Of a DNA stretch of 64,000 nt, positions 26,095 through 63,443 are shown piece after piece. Source of the stretch: Pseudodesulfovibrio tunisiensis (GTDB lineage Bacteria; Desulfobacterota; Desulfovibrionia; Desulfovibrionales; Desulfovibrionaceae); contig NZ_CP094380.1 in assembly GCF_022809775.1 (NCBI RefSeq), positions 2,765,501 through 2,829,500 on the forward strand, in the 5' to 3' direction. The translations under genes and the position numbers were made by a program. Under the pieces are notes generated by a model, which was not told the origin of the DNA, did no database searches, and saw only the letters and a program-made list of their open reading frames with translations. Positions within the stretch are counted from its first letter, which is position 1, and the number at the start of each line of letters is the position of its first letter.

Positions 26095-26709
26095 GTGAAA
26101 CTCGCTGTCACCGCCTCGTCCTCAACCTCTCTTGCCGCGCTTTGGACCCCCCTGATCCCGGAACTGCTGGATCGGGGGCATGAAGTGCATACCCTGGCCC
26201 CGCCCATGCTCGATCCGCAGGCGCAGGACCCGGCCGCGCATCTGGAAGCCCTTGGCTCGGAACATCATCTTTTCCCGCTCAGGCAGGGCGGGCTCAATCC
26301 CCTTGCCGATTTCACGGCCCTGTTCCACCTCAAGGAAATCTACGGCCGCATTCGTCCGGACTGCGTCATCTCCTCGGGCATCAAGCCCGTGACCTACGGT
26401 TCGCTTGGTGCGCGTCTCGCCCATGTCCGGCGCGTGGCCTCCATCGTCACCGACCTTGGCTCGACTTTGAACCGCTCCGGCGGATTCCGGGGCCGCATCC
26501 GGTTCAATGTGGCCAAGGGCATGTATCGGGCCGGGCTGCGCTCCTGCGATCGCGTGATCTTCCGTTCCGGGGATGATCGGAACGTCTTTGATCAGCTCAA
26601 GGTTGTTCCGGATCATGCTCGGGTTGCGCTCATGCCCGGATTCGATCCGCTCATGGAGACCTTCAGCACGGCGGACATGGTCGAGGAACTGCTGGAATTC
26701 CTGAATTGA
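26095..26709 (+). CDS. Short glycosyltransferase-like protein, N-terminal GT-B domain only
   Basis: A 204-residue protein matching the N-terminal acceptor domain of GT-B glycosyltransferases (GT4-like): LAALWTPLIPELLDRGHEVHTLAPP, CVISSGIKPVTYGSLGARLA and LRSCDRVIFRSGDDRNVF, ending near the hinge (MPGFDP). The C-terminal nucleotide-sugar domain with EX7E motif is absent; a proper stop follows after about 20 residues, and no remainder is seen downstream. It follows cobS by 21 bases, so it is likely co-transcribed. Whether it is active, needs a partner, or is a remnant is open. Confidence 0.6.
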   Translation: MKLAVTASSSTSLAALWTPLIPELLDRGHEVHTLAPPMLDPQAQDPAAHLEALGSEHHLFPLRQGGLNPLADFTALFHLKEIYGRIRPDCVISSGIKPVTYGSLGARLAHVRRVASIVTDLGSTLNRSGGFRGRIRFNVAKGMYRAGLRSCDRVIFRSGDDRNVFDQLKVVPDHARVALMPGFDPLMETFSTADMVEELLEFLN

Positions 26710-26782
26710 TCGCGGGTTGCGGCGTTGACATCCTCTCCGGGTTGCCTGATACAGGAAAGGAAAGGCAACAAGGAGGACGATC

Positions 26783-27205
26783 ATGAATATCAAGAAGATC
26801 CTGCTTCCGGTTGACGGCTCCAGCCATTCCGACGCTGCCGCGCACATGGCCATCGACATCGCCGCATCCTTCAATGCTTCCGTGGTCATCCTGTATGTCC
26901 GTCGCCGGGTTCCGGCCGGGCTGGGTGAACCCAATGCCACGGAATATCACGATTTTCTGAACAAGAGCGCTGCTGACGTGCTTGCCCCGTACAAGACTCT
27001 GCTCACTGAGGCGGAGATCGACCATCAGGACATGGTCGTGGGCGGCAACGTGGCCGAGGTCATCGGCGATGTTGCCCGGGCCGAACAGTGCGACGTGATC
27101 GTGATCGGCTCCAAGGGCAAGTCCGAACTCGAAGGACTCGTGCTCGGGTCCGTTACCCACAAGGTCCTGAACACCACGCGCTGCCCGGTCCTTGTGGTCA
27201 AGTGA
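26783..27205 (+). CDS. Universal stress protein (UspA family)
   Basis: A 140-residue UspA-type protein: KKILLPVDGSSHSDAAAHMA at the start, and the ATP-binding loop VIGSKGKSELEGLVLGSVTHKVL...CPVLVVK at the end (G-2x-G-9x-G(S/T)). Such proteins bind ATP as dimers and are induced in stress. AAGGAGG precedes the ATG. The stop codon's final base is the first base of repeat-element copy 1. Confidence 0.93.
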   Translation: MNIKKILLPVDGSSHSDAAAHMAIDIAASFNASVVILYVRRRVPAGLGEPNATEYHDFLNKSAADVLAPYKTLLTEAEIDHQDMVVGGNVAEVIGDVARAEQCDVIVIGSKGKSELEGLVLGSVTHKVLNTTRCPVLVVK

Positions 27206-27570
27206 TGCCTTCGGCGACCAGAGAACCCTTTGAAAAGGGGTTCTCTGGACTCTCCCAAACTTTCTGGTTCTACGCCGCCTGTGGAGGATGAGGAAATTTG
27301 TCCGGCTCGTATGGCGGCGTAGGGCGATGCGGAAAAGCGGACGATTGCGCTATCGAGAAATCAGAACTCAGGGGAAACAGGCAAAGGGAAAAGAAGTTTT
27401 TTTTGAAGCCAGCCACCCCGTCTTGAGAATTCGAAGAGGCCGGATGCATGTCCCGACAGGGCATGTATCCGGCCTCTTCGAATTCTCAAGACAGAATGGG
27501 GATCCAAGGGGCCTTGCTCCTTGGCGGGTCCGGGCAGAGCCCGGCCCCCCGGGAGGGTCGCCGAAGGCAT
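27205..27570 (+). repeat. Hairpin repeat element, copy 1 (366 bp), between convergent genes
   Basis: Full-length copy of a dispersed element. The ends are inverted repeats ATGCCTTCGGCGACC (27205-27219) and its exact complement (27556-27570). Inside, in order: hairpin A (27218-27248, arms CCAGAGAACCC), hairpin B (27270-27322, arms CTACGCCGCC/GGCGGCGTAG), the motif GGGGAAACAGGCAAAG, hairpin C (27421-27491; 30-bp arms, loop TCCCGACAGGG), then GGGGATCCAAGGGGCC and GC-rich hairpins CCAAGG/CCTTGG and CCGGGC/GCCCGG. It exactly fills the gap between the usp stop and the helicase stop (27576). No conserved protein is encoded. Confidence 0.9.
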
Positions 27571-27575
27571 TCCCC

Positions 27576-30440
27576 CTACCAGTCCACGGGCACCTTGACC
27601 TTTTGTCCGGCCTTGTTGGTGAAGAGCACATGCCCGTGTTCCCGTCCGTACAGATACACGTCGCGGGTGACGGCCACGTCCTGTCGGCAGTATTCGGTGA
27701 TGAGATCAAGCCGACCCTGCTTCCACCATGCAAGGGCCTGAAGCCCGTCTGCGGACTTGCCCACGTTCAGGGTGGCCTGGGCGATGTTGTCGAGCTTGAC
27801 CCGGTATCCGAGCCGGTTCTTCACCTCGATGAGCAGATCAAGACTCGGCAGTTCTCGAAATTTGAAGGGATGCAGACCGGCCAGCACTGCGTAGTCGAAC
27901 TTGACGTGATTGAATCCGATGACCAGATCGAACTTTTGCAGATGCGCGACCAGCTCGTCGAGTTGCTCCTGTTCGTAATCCGCCATTTTCTTGGTTTCGG
28001 AATCATACACGCAGGCAATGGACACGCCCATGCGATCCGCGCGATTCCAGCCGCCCACATCCTGGGCCGAGTACCGGGTTTCGATGTCGATGACGCCATA
28101 GCGTTCGGGTTCGGGCCGGGTGGGAATGAGTCCGGGCAGTTGCACGTCGATCTCCCTTGGTTTGACGGATGCCGGGTCGCCCGCGCGAATGGCCTCCAGC
28201 ACGAACTGGGCCGCGCGCTTGTCGATGGGCCGATTGCCGGACCCGCACTTGGGTGAATGCACGCAGGACGGGCACCCCAGATCGCAGGGGCATTCCGTGA
28301 TGGTTCTGAGCGTGGTCTCCAATACCTCTTCGGCCTTGCGAAAGGCCTGACGGGTCAGGCCCGCGCCGCCGGGCATGCCGTCGTAGATGAACACGGCCGC
28401 ACCCTGCACCTGTTCGTGCATGGGCGTGGAAATGCCGCCGAGGTCGTTGCGGTCGGTCATGACCAGCAGAGGCAGCATGCCGATGGCCGCGTGTTCGAAC
28501 GCGTGGATGCCGCCCATGAAATGCAGGAATTCCTCTTCGCACCGCTGGCGCACGGCATGAGGAATCTCGAACCACATGCCTTCGGTTTCAAATACCAGCG
28601 GTTCCAGATCAAGGGGCATGATGCCCAGCAATTTGCCCCCGCGCACGGACCGCTTTTCATAGCCTGTGATGCGTTCGGTCACGCGCAGCCTGCCGAAATA
28701 GACCGCAGTGCCGAAGCAGGGGCCCGAATCCAGCACTTCGAGAATCTCCGTGTCCTTGGACCCGCGCGGCTTGGTGTAATAGCCCACACGCTTCTTCTCG
28801 GCCTTCACGGTCAGTGTGCCGGGGTCCATGTGCGTGATCACGTAGGTCTGGCCGCGATGCAGATACACGGCTCCGGGATGCGCTTCGCGATAGGCGCGAT
28901 GATTGTCTATGGTGCCGATGAGTGCGGGCTTTTCCGGGTTGCCGGTGCAGTCCTGAATGTGCATGGATTTGCCAGCGCCGCGCAGGTCCACGTCCCGGTG
29001 CGGCCGCTTGCGATGGGAGACCACATCGCCGTCTTCCACCTCGAACAGGTCGCCGGACGCGACCAGTTCACGCACGCGCTCCCCGATTTCCGGCTCGCGC
29101 AGAAAGGATTCCCCGGGCCGCAGGGAGAGTTCCGCGGCAGCGCAGATCAGATGTCGGTCCATGACCACGGGGTTGTGCGGATTGAGCATGGCGGACTCGG
29201 GCGGGCGGGAAAAGAAATCCTCGGGATGACGCATGAAATACTGGTCCAGTGCATCCTCGCCAGCCACGAGTGCCACAGCGGATTCCCGGAGAGCGCGACC
29301 GACCCGGCCTCCGCGCTGCAAAGTGGCCATGACCGTGCCCGGGTAGCCCACCATGATGCACACGTCGAGCCCGCCGATGTCGATGCCCAGTTCGAGCGCG
29401 GACGTGGAGATCACGGCCAGCAGCTCGCCGGAAGCCATGCGCGATTCGATCTCGCGCCGTTCCTCGGGCAGAAATCCGGCCCGGTATGCGGAAATGCGGG
29501 ATTTGTATTTTCCGGATTTTTCCGTGGCCCAGAGCGCGATGAGTTCCGTGAGCTTGCGCGACTGGCAGTAGACGATGGTGCGCAGGTTTCGAGCGAGGGC
29601 GGAACGCAGGAGCTGGATCGCGGCGTTGGCCGGCCCCGCGTCCGGGTTCAGAAAGATCATGTGCCGTCCACCCTGCGCAGCCCCGGATTCGAGGATCGGA
29701 TGCACGTCCAGCCCGGTGAGCATGCGGCACAGTTCCACGGGATTGCCGATGGTGGCGGAACAGAAGATGAAGGTGGGCCGAGCTCCGTAGTATTCGCACA
29801 GCCGCAGCAGACGGCGGAAGACCATGGCCATGTGCGAGCCCATAACGCCCCGGTAGGTGTGCACCTCGTCGACCACGATGTGGGTCAGCCCGGAGAGGAA
29901 CGAGGCCCATGACGCATGATGCGGCAGCATGGACAGATGCACCATTTCCGGATTGCTCAGGATGACGTTGGGCGGATCGTTGCGGATTTTCCCGCGTTTG
30001 TACTGGGTGGTGTCCCCGTCATAGATGGCGGCCGTGGGTCTGTGCTCCCCGGGCATGAGTCCGGCCAGTTCGTTGAACGCGCGCAGCTGGTCCTGCGCCA
30101 GCGCCTTGAGCGGAAACAGGTAGAGGGCGTGCGCCTCGGGATCGCCCAGACAATGTTCCATGATCGGCAGATTGTAGCAGAAGGTCTTGCCGCTGGCCGT
30201 GGGCGTGGCCACCACAACGTGATGCCCGGCCCGGACATGATCCGCGGCCTCGGCCTGATGCGCGTACAAAGTCTCGATGCCCAGCATGTCCAGAGCCTGT
30301 CGCACAGGCGCGGCAAAGGGACGGCGCGGCTCGGCAAACCTGGCCTCCTTTCCGGGCAGCTCCCGATGATCCGCCACCTGCGGAGCCATGCTCTCGGACT
30401 GGAGCAGGGAAGAAACGTAATCGCTGACTGAGGATTCCAC
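27576..30440 (-). CDS. DEAD/DEAH helicase (DUF1998) fused to DEDD exonuclease, MrfA-MrfB-like
   Basis: About 954 residues. The superfamily 2 helicase core has VVATPTASGKT (Walker A), DEVHTY (Walker B) and FCSATIGNP, plus a helicase C domain with GYPGTVMATLQRGGRVGRA. A DUF1998-type zone follows with four cysteines (CPCDLGCPSCVHSPKCGSGN). The last 180 residues are an RNase H-like exonuclease: VIDIET (Exo I), GFNHVKFD (Exo II) and YCRQDV (Exo III). The helicase resembles B. subtilis YprA/MrfA and the tail resembles YprB/MrfB, which act together in mitomycin-lesion repair. The frame is open to an ATG at 30524, but that lies in a repeat fragment; GTG at 30440 is chosen tentatively. Confidence 0.87.
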   Translation of the reverse strand: MESSVSDYVSSLLQSESMAPQVADHRELPGKEARFAEPRRPFAAPVRQALDMLGIETLYAHQAEAADHVRAGHHVVVATPTASGKTFCYNLPIMEHCLGDPEAHALYLFPLKALAQDQLRAFNELAGLMPGEHRPTAAIYDGDTTQYKRGKIRNDPPNVILSNPEMVHLSMLPHHASWASFLSGLTHIVVDEVHTYRGVMGSHMAMVFRRLLRLCEYYGARPTFIFCSATIGNPVELCRMLTGLDVHPILESGAAQGGRHMIFLNPDAGPANAAIQLLRSALARNLRTIVYCQSRKLTELIALWATEKSGKYKSRISAYRAGFLPEERREIESRMASGELLAVISTSALELGIDIGGLDVCIMVGYPGTVMATLQRGGRVGRALRESAVALVAGEDALDQYFMRHPEDFFSRPPESAMLNPHNPVVMDRHLICAAAELSLRPGESFLREPEIGERVRELVASGDLFEVEDGDVVSHRKRPHRDVDLRGAGKSMHIQDCTGNPEKPALIGTIDNHRAYREAHPGAVYLHRGQTYVITHMDPGTLTVKAEKKRVGYYTKPRGSKDTEILEVLDSGPCFGTAVYFGRLRVTERITGYEKRSVRGGKLLGIMPLDLEPLVFETEGMWFEIPHAVRQRCEEEFLHFMGGIHAFEHAAIGMLPLLVMTDRNDLGGISTPMHEQVQGAAVFIYDGMPGGAGLTRQAFRKAEEVLETTLRTITECPCDLGCPSCVHSPKCGSGNRPIDKRAAQFVLEAIRAGDPASVKPREIDVQLPGLIPTRPEPERYGVIDIETRYSAQDVGGWNRADRMGVSIACVYDSETKKMADYEQEQLDELVAHLQKFDLVIGFNHVKFDYAVLAGLHPFKFRELPSLDLLIEVKNRLGYRVKLDNIAQATLNVGKSADGLQALAWWKQGRLDLITEYCRQDVAVTRDVYLYGREHGHVLFTNKAGQKVKVPVDW

Positions 30441-30484
30441 GAGGCCCGGATGGTAGTACGGAGGATGCCCACAGGGCAAGCTCT

Positions 30485-30567
30485 GCTTTCCTCGGCCAAC
30501 TACGCCGCCAGCAAGTTCCCTCATCCCTTGTTGGCGGCGTAGACTTAAAAAGTTTTGAAGAATCCAA
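30485..30567 (-). repeat. Fragment of the hairpin repeat element (hairpin B region)
   Basis: Contains hairpin B alone: CTACGCCGCCAGCAAG (30500-30515) and its complement (30527-30542; 15 of 16 Watson-Crick plus one G-T). On the minus strand the flanks read GGATTCTTCAAAACTTT before it and GGGATGAGGGAACTTG in the loop, matching GGACTCTCCCAAACTTT and GAGGATGAGGAAATTTG of copy 1. The terminal repeats and hairpin C are missing. Unlike the full copies it lies upstream of a gene. Confidence 0.75.
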
Positions 30568-30602
30568 AGAAGTTTTCACGACAAATCCGCAGGACAGCGA
30601 AT

Positions 30603-30788
30603 TTGGACGCTGATTTTGCCACGTCCGAAGACCTTTCAGTCCGGGCCGAAGCAAAGGTGGGGGAGCTGGTCGCCGGAAGCCAGATTCCGCTTGCTTTCGC
30701 GGGAATCTCTCTGCACACTTGTGCCCGTGCCGTGGTGGATCGAGTCCTTGCGGCCAAATCGGATGAAGGTGAAAACGCATGGCCATGA
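30603..30788 (+). CDS. Possible small protein coupled to the DUF4911 gene
   Basis: An open frame whose last 60 or so residues look coding (SVRAEAKVGELVAGSQIPLAF, CARAVVDRVLAA). Its TGA overlaps the ATG at 30785 of the next gene (ATGA), which argues for translational coupling. No ATG start exists: TTG at 30603 with AGGA nearby is the best choice, and a TTG at 30555 falls in the repeat fragment. No family is recognised. The evidence is the overlap and plausible composition only. Confidence 0.35.
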   Translation: MDADFATSEDLSVRAEAKVGELVAGSQIPLAFAGISLHTCARAVVDRVLAAKSDEGENAWP

Positions 30789-32013: not shown

Positions 32014-33666
32014 TTAGCCTCCGAAGAAGGCCAGAATGGAATCCATGTACCAGGTCGCGGCCAGACCGGCCAGAGACATGGTGATGGTGTACGGCAGGGC
32101 CAGAACAACCATGCGGCCGTAGGACAGCCGGATGACCGGAGCCAGCGCCGAGGTGAGCAGGAACAGGAACGCGGCCTGACCGTTCGGCGTGGCCACGCTC
32201 GGGATGTTCGTGCCCGTGTTGATGGCCACGGCCAGTTTGTCGAACTGGGTCATGAGCGCTGCCGCCTGATCCGCTGCGGCCTGCGGCAGGGTCGCCAGCA
32301 CGTCGGCGCGCATGCGATTCGGATCGGTGAGCAGGTCCATGAGCTGTTCGCCGGTCATGCCGATGCCCGGAATTGCGCCCAGCATCTGCACGAAGTGCAT
32401 CTTGGTCTCCGAAACGTACACGGTCGCCACGAACACGTTGTCCGAGATCATGGAGAGAATGCCGTTCGCGCTGTAGTAGGCGGCAAGTTGCACCTGTCCT
32501 TCCAGACTCAGCACGAAATTGATGACCGGCTTGAACAGATGCAGGTCGTGGATCATGGCCACAATGGCAAAGAAGACCACGAGCAGCGCGGTAAAGGGCA
32601 GGGCTTCTTCAAACGCCTTGCCGAGCTGGTGTTCCTCGATGTAGCCGTTCGACGCGGTCAGCAGCACGATGACGGACAGGCCGATCAGGCCCACGGCCGC
32701 AAGGTGAAAGCCCAGCGCCAGAACCAGCCAGATGCCGATCAGTGCCTGGGCAATGATCTTCGCCTTGCCGGCCTGACCACGTTTGGCTTCCATTTCCGTG
32801 GCGGTTTCCAGCAGATGGGAACGGATGTTGCCCGGCATTTCCACGCCATAACCGAACAGCTTGAACTTCTCCACGACCATGCAGGTCAGCAGACCTGTGG
32901 CAAGCACGGGCATGGAAATCGGGGCTACGCGAATGAAGAAATCCACGAAATGCCAGCCCATTTCCGAGCCGATCAGCAGATTCTGCGGTTCGCCCACGAT
33001 GGTGCACACACCGCCAAGGGCCGTGCCCACGGCGCCGTGCATCATCAGGTTGCGCAGAAAGGCCCGGAATTGCATCAGGTCTGCGCGGTCCTTGTCCTTG
33101 GCCACGTTCGTGTCGCTGCACAGGTCGTGCGAACAGGTCATGGTCTTGCCGGACGCGAATCGGTGGTAGACATTGTAGAACCCGTAGGCCACGGCAATGA
33201 TCACCGCAGTCACGGTCAATGCGTCCAGAAACGCGGACAGCAGTGCGCCCGCAAAGCTGAACAGCAGGGAAATGACGATCTTGGATCGGACCTTCACCAG
33301 AATGCGGGTAAAGGTGAACTGAAGGAAGTCCTTCATGAAGTAGATGCCCGCCACCATGAAGATGAGCAGCAGGATGACCTCGAAGTTGTTCAGGGCTTCG
33401 TGGTAGACGGTTTCGGGCTTGGTCATGCCCAGCGCCACGGCCTCGAGGGCCAGAAGACCGCCTGCAGGCAGCGGATAGCACTTGAGCGCCATGGCCAGTG
33501 TGAAGATGAACTCTCCGATCACCACCCAGCCGGTGATGAACGGGCCTACCGTGTAGAGCAGAATGGGGTTGAGGACCAGAAAACCGAGAATGGCCTTTTT
33601 GTACCATCCCGGGGCATTTCCGAGGAAATTGCCACCCATGGCCTGGATAATAGACGTCTGTGCCAA
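32014..33666 (-). CDS. nhaB: Na+/H+ antiporter NhaB
   Basis: A 550-residue inner-membrane antiporter that expels Na+ in exchange for protons. The N-terminus ([25 protein letters not shown]), [49 protein letters not shown] and [16 protein letters not shown] are family signatures of NhaB; about twelve membrane segments are visible. The length is slightly above the E. coli protein. It is a single gene with a 284-base upstream gap to the TetR gene, in which no clear regulatory motif was identified apart from the TetR operator at its far side. Confidence 0.94.
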
Positions 33667-38749: not shown

Positions 38750-39112
38750 TGCCTTCGGCGACCAGAGAACCCTTTGAAAAGGGTTCTCTGGACTCTCCCA
38801 AACTTTCTGGTTCTACGCCGCCTGTGGAGGATGAGGGAACTTGTCCATCTCGTATGGCGGCGTAGGGCGATGCGGAAAAGCGGGCGATTGCGCTATCGAG
38901 GAAAAGGACTCAGGGGAAACAGGCAAAAGAAGAAGAAGCAAGTTTTTCTGAAGCTACCCCGTCTTGAGAATTCGAAGAGGCCGGATGCATGTCCCGACAG
39001 GGCATGTATCCGGCCTCTTCGAATTCTCAAGACAGGATGGGGATCCAAGGGGCTTTGCTCCTTGGCGGGTCCGGGCAGAGCCCGGCCCCCCGGGGGGGGC
39101 CGCCGGAGGCAT
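38750..39112 (+). repeat. Hairpin repeat element, copy 2 (363 bp), between convergent genes
   Basis: Same order as copy 1: left end TGCCTTCGGCGACC, hairpin A (arms CCAGAGAACCC), hairpin B (CTACGCCGCC/GGCGGCGTAG), GGGGAAACAGGCAAAAG, hairpin C (38962-39032, arms identical to copy 1), GGGGATCCAAGGGGCTTTG, CCGGGC/GCCCGG hairpin, and right end GGCCGCCGGAGGCA (39098-39111). The right end differs from copy 1 at three positions and so pairs less well with the left end. It spans the gap from the RND stop to the amidase stop at 39115. Confidence 0.9.
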
Positions 39113-52232: not shown

Positions 52233-52521
52233 TGCCGCCAACGGCTCAGGAATCCTTTGCGTCTGACCGTACTGGGACTTCCCGCTGTCTTGCGAAACAG
52301 TCCGTTTTGCCCTGTCGATGAACGTGATTCAGGGGACACGGGCAAGGAGAAGAACGTTTTTTCGTGTCTCCCCGTTTCCGGAATTGGAAGAGGCCGGCGG
52401 CATGTCCCGACAGGGCATGCCGCCGGCCTCTTCCAATTCCGGAAACAGATGGGGATCCAAGGGGCCTTGCTCCTTGGCGGGTCCGGGCAGAGCCCGGCCC
52501 CCCGGGAGGGTCGCCGAAGGC
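52233..52521 (+). repeat. Hairpin repeat element, copy 3 (289 bp, internally reduced)
   Basis: The right half is intact: GGGGACACGGGCAAGGAG, hairpin C (52374-52446; perfect 31-bp arms with a sequence different from copies 1 and 2 but the same loop TCCCGACAGGG), GGGGATCCAAGGGGCC, CCGGGC/GCCCGG hairpin, and right end GGTCGCCGAAGGCC (52509-52522). The left end TGCCGCCAACGGCTC matches the TIR consensus at 12 of 15 positions. Hairpins A and B are missing. It lies between the stops of convergent ChaN-like (52227) and znuA (52523) genes. Confidence 0.82.
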
Positions 52522-52522
52522 C

Positions 52523-53405
52523 TTACTGTCCGAACGAGCTGCGAAAGGCTTCAGCCACGTTTCGCAGGTTGTCGGCCCAGTCGTGGGCCATGGGGTCGGC
52601 CTTGATCACGTTGCCGTGGATGGCGTCGGCAATGATGCGCGCTGATTTCTCCGAGAACTGGGGCTGGACGAAGATGACGCGGATGCTGTTTGCCCGGGCG
52701 TAGTCCACGAGCTCGGCCAGTCCGCGGCGGGCGGGGCGCCTTGCCTTCCTTTTCCACGGGAATCTGGTTCAGGTGGAATTCCCGGGCAAAGTAGCCCCAT
52801 GCCGGATGATAGACCATGAAGGGCGCGCCTTCGGGCACCTTGGCGAACAGATGGCGCAGGTCCGAGTCGAGCAGGTCCACTTCCTGAAGAAAGGTTTCGT
52901 AGTTGGCCTCGTAGGCCTTGCGATTGGCCGGGTCGGTCTTGGCAAGGGCAAGGTGGATGGTGCGCGCGATGTTTCGGACAAGGGCGGGCGAGGTCCAGAT
53001 GTGCGGGTCGAGGCTGGCATGCCCGTGCCCGGATTCGGCCTTGTGTTCGTGCCCGTGCCTGTGCGCGGCCATGGGCATTTTGGTGATGCCCATGTCGGCC
53101 TGAACCACGGCGAGATCGGGATTGGCGGCCTTGAATCGGGGCAGCCACACGTTTTCGAATCCCACGCCGATGGCCACGTAGAGCCGGGCCTTGGCAATGG
53201 CAGTCATCTGGCTGGGCTTGGGCTCGTAGCTGTGGGGCTCGTCCCCGGGACCGACCATGACGGACACGTCCACCATGTCGCCACCGATGCGCTGAACGAA
53301 ATACTGGACGGGTTCAATGCCCGTGACCACGGGCAGGGGCTGGGCCGGGGCAAGGGCCGGAAGCAGGATCAGGCACAGCGCGGTCAGCAATGCAAAACGT
53401 TTCAT
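52523..53405 (-). pseudogene. znuA: Zinc ABC transporter substrate-binding protein, frameshifted
   Basis: A ZnuA-type (cluster A-I) metal-binding protein. Signal peptide (LLPALAPAQP), zinc-site histidine in GPGDEPHSYEPKPSQ, a His-rich loop (AAHRHGHEHKAESGHGH), DPHIWTSP and VYHPAWGYFAREF are in the first frame. The end (DYARANSIRVIFVQPQFSEKSA, GNVIKADPMAHDW) is in another. One extra base within the GC-rich stretch 52721-52739 separates them; 883 bases equal 294 codons plus one. Intact length would be 293 residues. No znuB or znuC follows. GGAGGG precedes the ATG. Confidence 0.85.
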
Positions 53406-63088: not shown

Positions 63089-63443
63089 ATGCCTTCGGCG
63101 ACCATCCCGGGGGGCCGGGCGCCGCCCGGACCCGCCAAGGAGCAAGGCCCCTTGGATCCCCATTCCGTTCCGGGAATTTGAAGAGGCCGGATGCATGCCC
63201 TGTCGGGACATGCTTCCGGCCTCTTCAAATTTCCGAAACGGGTGGCTTCAAAAGAGAGAGACTTCTTTTTTCCCTTTGCCTGTTTCCCCGAGTCCTGTTC
63301 TTCGACAGGGCAAGTCAGGCCCTTCCGCGCTCAACTACGCCGCCGAACGGGCCTTGCAAGCTCCCTTGTCCTTGCAGGCGGCGTAGAACCGGAAAGTTCA
63401 GGATTCTTAAACCCTTTTCAAAGGGTTTGAGCCGCCGGAGGCC
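63089..63443 (-). repeat. Hairpin repeat element, copy 4 (355 bp), inverted orientation
   Basis: Read on the minus strand it follows the order of copies 1 and 2: end GCCTCCGGCGGC (63429-63443), hairpin A (AAACCCTTTGAAAAGGGTTT), hairpin B (CTACGCCGCC/GGCGGCGTAG), GGGGAAACAGGCAAAGGG, hairpin C (63165-63241; 33-bp arms with three mismatches or wobbles, loop TCCCGACAGGG), GGGGATCCAAGGGGCC, CCGGGC/GCCCGG, and end GGTCGCCGAAGGCAT (63089-63103). It fills the gap between the chemoreceptor terminator and the asparaginase stop (63448). Confidence 0.9.

Follow-up and report, generated by a model that had tools for sequence, protein, structure and literature searches.

The window analysed here is a stretch of 64,000 nucleotides (bases 2765501-2829500) from a genome that consists of a single 3.61-Mb contig. 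In it, a universal stress protein gene (26783..27205, + strand) converges on a DEAD-box helicase gene (27576..30524, - strand) with DEAD, MrfA Zn-binding, and RNase H-like domains, and between the two lies a composite element of 366 bp (copy 1, 27205..27570, +). The stop codon of the stress protein gene overlaps the left edge of the element, and that of the helicase gene is 5 bp past its right edge. The sequence-only reading described this stretch as bounded by an exact inverted repeat, and we find it so: the left end repeat is ATGCCTTCGGCGACC (27205..27219, +), and its exact complement forms the right end repeat (27556..27570, +). Between the ends, all on the + strand, lie the M1 hairpin, CCAGAGAACCC...GGGTTCTCTGG (27218..27248), the M2 hairpin, CTACGCCGCC...GGCGGCGTAG (27270..27322), whose loop is species-dependent, a weakly paired linker containing the M4 motif GGGGAAACAGGCAAAG (27371..27386), the long M5 hairpin with a CCC-GACA-GGG apex (27420..27492), and M6, which comprises two short hairpins, GGGGATCCAAGG and CCGGGC/GCCCGG (27498..27555). 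The same order of parts recurs, as had been claimed, in copy 2 (38750..39112, +), with an RND-type transporter gene on one side and an amidase gene converging from the other, and in copy 4 (63089..63443, -), which also lies between convergent genes and adjoins an intrinsic terminator; the ends of both are imperfect. The partial copy reported at 52233-52521 is present with slightly different limits (copy 3, 52233..52523, +); its left end and M1/M2 are decayed, M5-M6 are intact, and convergent genes lie on either side. That the element encodes no conserved protein also held: none of six ORFs of at least 120 aa overlapping copies 1 and 2, the copies examined, matched Pfam at E <= 0.01 (flanking genes apart).

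The four copies known at the outset belong to a far larger family, with 60 copies catalogued in the 3.6-Mb genome by merging blastn candidates (40 scored of 98 at first look) with the places of a core motif (46 exact). We regard 60 as a floor, because patterns for the end repeat and for the M2 hairpin flagged 22 further loci, and those inspected add at least seven copies, full or partial, to the count (near 1424550, 1814126, 1854025, 1855004, 2336074, 2558384, and 2964745). The end repeat, GCCTYCGGCGRC, occurs at 111 places genome-wide, compared with two for the reversed pattern. An ordered set of parts had been proposed; the order does recur, but the parts are modular and those on the left vary in kind. 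The type of M1 differs among copies, an inverted M6-M5 pair is found at 3398433/3398781, and locus L328 carries a different composite, which by eye has the M1-M2 type reversed and resembles the composites of other species. Decayed copies are numerous among the 60. Left parts are often absent by BLAST, which might suggest 5'-truncation of the retroelement kind, yet at sequence level the left modules prove to be diverged or of another kind, and we set this explanation aside.

Several other observations concern the repeats of this genome. Six of the 60 copies (L067, L037, L016, L059, L069, and L064) contain a block of about 75 bp, GATTCGGCCCG...GCGGATTTGTC, nested in the loop of the M1 hairpin or in its remnant, that is, a repeat within the loop of another repeat. 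Within the window, positions 30525-30778, between divergent genes, hold an apparent decayed and reversed M1 remnant that includes this nested block. At locus L322 (genome 1854025-1855315), two copies that look much alike are separated by about 1 kb and face the same way, which suggests local copying or conversion. A different repeat, of the ACGCGTATTCC...GCGAG type, is intergenic at L240 near 2480221, at L243 near 2854111, and at L084, and looks by eye like a repeat of Pseudodesulfovibrio pelocollis. Finally, a 550-codon frame on the minus strand of the window (32014-33666) has further copies in this genome at 80-81% identity, and its DNA also matches many genomes of the genus.

Matches to the element at E <= 0.001 were found in 32 of 36 genus genomes (our own included), and among the matches listed the full composite occurs in our genome only; elsewhere they are short and correspond to M1 (within query positions 1-92), the most recurrent part, or in two genomes to M6. 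Weaker core matches may have been missed, as scoring was limited to 19 candidates or fewer in each genome. The M2 hairpin recurs in three genus genomes (G001, G002, and G012) with species-specific loops. Of 90 Desulfovibrionaceae genomes, 37 have at least 20 hits to the end-repeat motif, with up to 387 per genome compared with eight for the reversed pattern; none of 60 genomes from other families of the order has as many as 20. The helicase gene beside copy 1 allows a comparison at one site. The proteins point to a Pseudodesulfovibrio relative: among the 80 loci kept for the helicase, records from that genus reach 79% identity in the best segment, and the best relatives listed are about 77% identical in the helicase gene. 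By blastn the composite was at the helicase 3' end in none of 20 relatives examined, and an end-motif-like hit lies within 600 bp of that end in four of the 20. This comparison covers a half-site, because beyond the far edge the relatives have another gene order. We found no name for the repeat in the literature searched, which took in few subscription journals and no supplements; the word Desulfovibrio is absent from the main texts of RepRanger and of a stem-loop survey (PMC12306157, PMC2267715).

The RNA of the 366-bp element is predicted to fold at -216.4 kcal/mol, whereas 100 dinucleotide shuffles average -137.4 (sd 5.8; z -13.5), and the fold is very stable on both strands. Across 34 copies, 89.6% of cells are paired; shuffles reach 84.7%, and shifting the partners by one to three columns leaves no more than 56.1%. 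The structure tested is favoured over its slid versions, since one of the copies supplied the fold. Double-sided change is seen in 237 cells, compared with 91.5 in shuffles and at most 78 with a slid partner, although related sequences can exceed shuffles without any structure. M5 supplies the bulk of the signal: over its 34 consensus pairs 98.9% of cells are paired, and 24 of these pairs show double-sided change. The helices of the linker are weak (68-85% of cells paired). Among the mismatches in M5, G-U accounts for 37 cells in 10 columns, with up to 12 copies in one column, and A-C for seven cells in seven columns, all singletons (column test p 0.044, from few independent events). As G-U pairs, read on the + strand, outnumber A-C in M5, this favours its pairing as + strand RNA; the excess is not seen in the end stem (11 G-U and 13 A-C cells) or in M2 (one and three). 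An RNA-level constraint at transcript ends is plausible; the double-sided change could also come from correction of palindromes at the DNA level. In the Rfam search only three tRNAs in the window, and nothing from the element, exceeded the curated thresholds; microRNA hits, which sit on the long hairpins, were below threshold. The M6 of one copy (L074:3360-3442) spans the full Clostridiales-2 RNA model (RF02937) weakly, at 28.3 bits against a curated threshold of 58.6, and is thus not a member; we note the alignment as a lead for distant relatives.

The element sits mostly tail-to-tail at convergent gene junctions. Taking gene pairs from our own gene caller, with 40 evenly spaced 15-kb samples as background, 38 of the 60 copies lie at convergent junctions, compared with 78 of 482 adjacent pairs in the background (Fisher p 5e-14); 17 copies are between tandem genes, two between divergent genes, and three are without resolved gene context. 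The four copies of the window occupy four of its 11 convergent pairs. The element ends within 7 bp of the downstream stop codon in 26 of the 38 convergent copies, and the upstream stop codon lies within 13 bp of the element in 23. Around copy 1 (26700-27800) there are no intrinsic-terminator-like sites, defined as a GC-rich hairpin with a U-tract directly after it. Over all 38 convergent copies our own script places a T-run terminator inside the element in 11 and between the element and the downstream gene in 10. Terminators outside the element occur at 15 of 38 junctions; among convergent pairs that lack an element the figure is 41 of 73 (p 0.11). Counting those inside or outside gives 23 of 38 against the same 41 of 73 (p 0.69); the remaining 15 junctions with an element have no T-run terminator at all. 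Replacement of the native terminator by the element is therefore a guess that we do not retain, because junctions with the element are not clearly short of ordinary terminators. As background, Desulfovibrio desulfuricans is among the few non-Firmicutes predicted to be rich in intrinsic terminators (PMC1852404), and clusters of hairpins without U-tracts have been argued to terminate transcription (PMC8355165).

The copies are also unevenly distributed along the chromosome. In the 40 samples the GC skew switches sign at about 2.41 Mb, taken as the origin, and at about 0.82 Mb, taken as the terminus; genes with a DnaA domain are at 2.57 Mb and 0.21 Mb. Counted outward from the origin in steps of 0.3 Mb, the copies number 19, 14, 12, 13, 1, and 1; the origin half holds 45 of the 60, and the terminus is avoided, with two of the 60 in 0-1.28 Mb. 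Convergent pairs are equally common there (37 per 300 kb, compared with 41 elsewhere), and of those sampled none of 37 carries an element, against five of 41 elsewhere (p 0.056). The greatest similarity is among origin-proximal copies (mean identity against origin distance, rho -0.60, 36 copies). Pairwise identity declines with the distance between copies (rho -0.41, permutation p 0.0005), and a small trend remains after per-copy effects are removed (rho -0.17, p 0.0015). The trend is absent outside 2.3-2.86 Mb (rho -0.005, p 0.45) and weak inside (rho -0.13, p 0.13); we have rejected isolation by distance on these grounds and read the trend mainly as a young origin-proximal group. In three other species, a non-random choice of single-contig genomes with many hits whose origins are skew estimates from 20 samples each, the origin half contains 25 of 36, 35 of 53, and 28 of 44 end-repeat loci (p 0.03, 0.03, and 0.10), or 88 of 133 when pooled (p 2e-4).

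We suggest, with about even confidence, that the element is a non-autonomous composite palindromic intergenic repeat of BIME/MITE-like kind that acts as a two-way transcript-end hairpin cassette. Two inverted REP-like ends, each GCCTYCGGCGRC with a hairpin, would bracket a species-specific chain of hairpins. The whole unit would have been copied into many tail-to-tail junctions of this lineage, which we infer because of its copy number and its restriction to the species. Both facing genes would probably transcribe the element as their own 3' end, and on either side the cluster of RNA hairpins could stop RNA polymerase, protect the 3' end, or both. The copy number, the convergent excess, the nearby stop codons, the conserved pairing, the G-U excess in M5, and the restriction of the composite to one species speak for this reading. 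Against it stand the copies at tandem and divergent junctions, the lack of terminator-like sites around copy 1, and the missing G-U excess in the end stem and M2.

The strongest competitor, to which we give rather less than an even chance, is a selfish or neutral repeat without host function, for which a tail-to-tail junction is the least harmful place of insertion and whose pairing is kept for copying or by DNA-level correction. A 'least worst' location has been proposed in this sense for the repeats of Pseudomonas fluorescens (PMC2718517), and the species-restricted composite, the patchy distribution in the family, the many decayed copies, and the similar frequency of ordinary terminators at junctions with and without the element all agree with it. 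The mismatches in M5 look biased to an RNA strand and count against neutrality, but not strongly. An independently transcribed small regulatory RNA would account for the very stable fold on both strands, but we consider such an RNA most improbable: its sites are fixed at 3' ends, no promoter-like site lies in 26700-27800 around copy 1, and no part of the element rises above an Rfam threshold. A site of chromosome organisation, with the copies flagging the half nearest the origin to a protein that binds or condenses DNA, is very unlikely. The near-empty terminus region and the origin bias here and in the three other species speak for it; against it, the cores differ between species, the conserved end motif is short, and a strand bias relative to replication was not seen (35 vs 25, p 0.25). 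Moreover, the strain-specific genes of P. fluorescens gather towards the terminus and its repeat-free regions consist mostly of strain-specific genes (PMC2718517); therefore, gene turnover near the terminus could alone yield the origin bias.

A further alternative concerns the mode of movement and is compatible with either the transcript-end or the neutral reading: the element may be a MITE or a RAYT-mobilised REPIN whose ends are, or were, recognised in trans by a Y1 or other transposase, now possibly lost. We think this unlikely. It would explain the inverted ends, the regular spacing of inward end-repeat pairs (352-367 bp in 24 of the 32 listed), and the amplification of the composite in one lineage. 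Mapping of copy number, flanks, and any helper transposase, which the sequence-only reading had put forward, yielded the 60 copies and their convergent flanks, but not a Y1/RAYT transposase: Y1_Tnp (PF01797) has no match in this genome in a search that was positive in five of 14 control genomes, which argues against RAYT/REPIN mobilisation. The domain is present in 17 of the 36 genus genomes, and several (G001, G004, G012, G014, and G032) are rich in end repeats without it; in the 14 genus genomes covered by both searches, end-repeat and Y1 counts are not positively related (rho -0.42, p 0.13). No target-site duplication was detected in 44 copies with both flanks, the direct flank matches being not above those on re-pairing (k=2, nine vs 12.7 expected; k=3, one vs 0.3; k=4, none of 44). 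Among 100 listed of the 111 end repeats, no inward pair is spaced 580-6573 bp apart, so that no parent element with these ends was seen; the only inward pairs spaced more widely than 580 bp measure 6.6 and 7.2 kb, and each shares one end with a catalogued copy. We have thus set aside a classical MITE. Carriage by phages or plasmids was also discarded, as blastn with an E cutoff of 1e-5 matched none of 72,556 plasmid or 50,697 phage records.

Returning to the hairpin cassette, a broader version can be entertained, although it is distinctly unlikely: a Desulfovibrionaceae-wide class of transcript-end cassettes with conserved ends and fast-changing cores, which would need no transposase of its own and would spread through copying or conversion templated by hairpins, most strongly near the origin. 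Were this true, each species would rewrite its tail-to-tail gene ends with its own cassette, mostly around the origin. If the cassette reading of the present element is correct, a bacterial family has, where facing genes end, a modular repeat that is strongly tied to origin distance; it would offer a tractable system for the multiplication of palindromic repeats in a genome without a Y1/RAYT transposase, and one for asking whether U-tract-free hairpin clusters end transcripts in sulfate reducers. The element would in addition be a sequence to mask or model when 3' ends are annotated in these genomes.

Three classes had been offered for the element, a miniature mobile element, a REP/BIME-like family, and a regulatory RNA. 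The BIME-like assignment fits best, given ends that are REP-like and inverted, hairpins that are modular, placement at tail-to-tail junctions, and cores that differ by species. The results do not support a classical MITE, as no target duplication was detected and no parent was seen among the end repeats listed, nor do they support a free regulatory RNA, given the promoter and Rfam results. With MITEs the element shares its short, non-coding, dispersed copies and terminal inverted repeats, and it differs in having neither a target-site duplication nor an autonomous partner that we could find. It resembles the uptake-sequence terminators of Neisseria and Pasteurellaceae, in which uptake-sequence hairpins serve as terminators, in being a repeated hairpin-forming sequence enriched tail-to-tail (PMC1852404). 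Uptake signals generally number 1000 or more, unlike the end repeat with its 111 places, which is not itself the terminator stem, and we have rejected a DNA-uptake signal because the copy number is too low. Like REPs, BIMEs, and REPINs, the element is extragenic and palindromic, with inverted pairs, convergent 3' ends, and complementary changes (PMC3733652, PMC2817692, PMC3116915); unlike them, its unit is about 360 bp rather than 20-40 bp, and its genome has no Y1/RAYT gene. The GTAG tag of REPs is not at the element ends (GCCTYCGGCGRC), occurring only as closing pairs of the M2 stem, and the CGTC tag is absent from the end consensus. Inverted M1/M6 ends surround a core and palindromic units alternate, as in a BIME, a likeness seen in the arrangement of the units. 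The R-family of P. fluorescens is described as intergenic repeats of 50-352 bp with hairpins, in strain-specific families, five of which have two inverted repeats around a core, with a tail-repeat-tail bias and large repeat-free regions (PMC2718517). Our element is like these in its intergenic position, inverted repeats around a core, hairpins, and tail-to-tail bias, as far as these are described; it differs in its several ordered hairpins, in an end repeat that is family-wide, and in a repeat-poor region centred on the terminus. Since such placement is already described for the Pseudomonas repeats and for REPs, which adjoin the 3' ends of convergent ORFs (PMC3733652), the element belongs to a known kind, and it looks like a new family of this sort of bacterial intergenic repeat.
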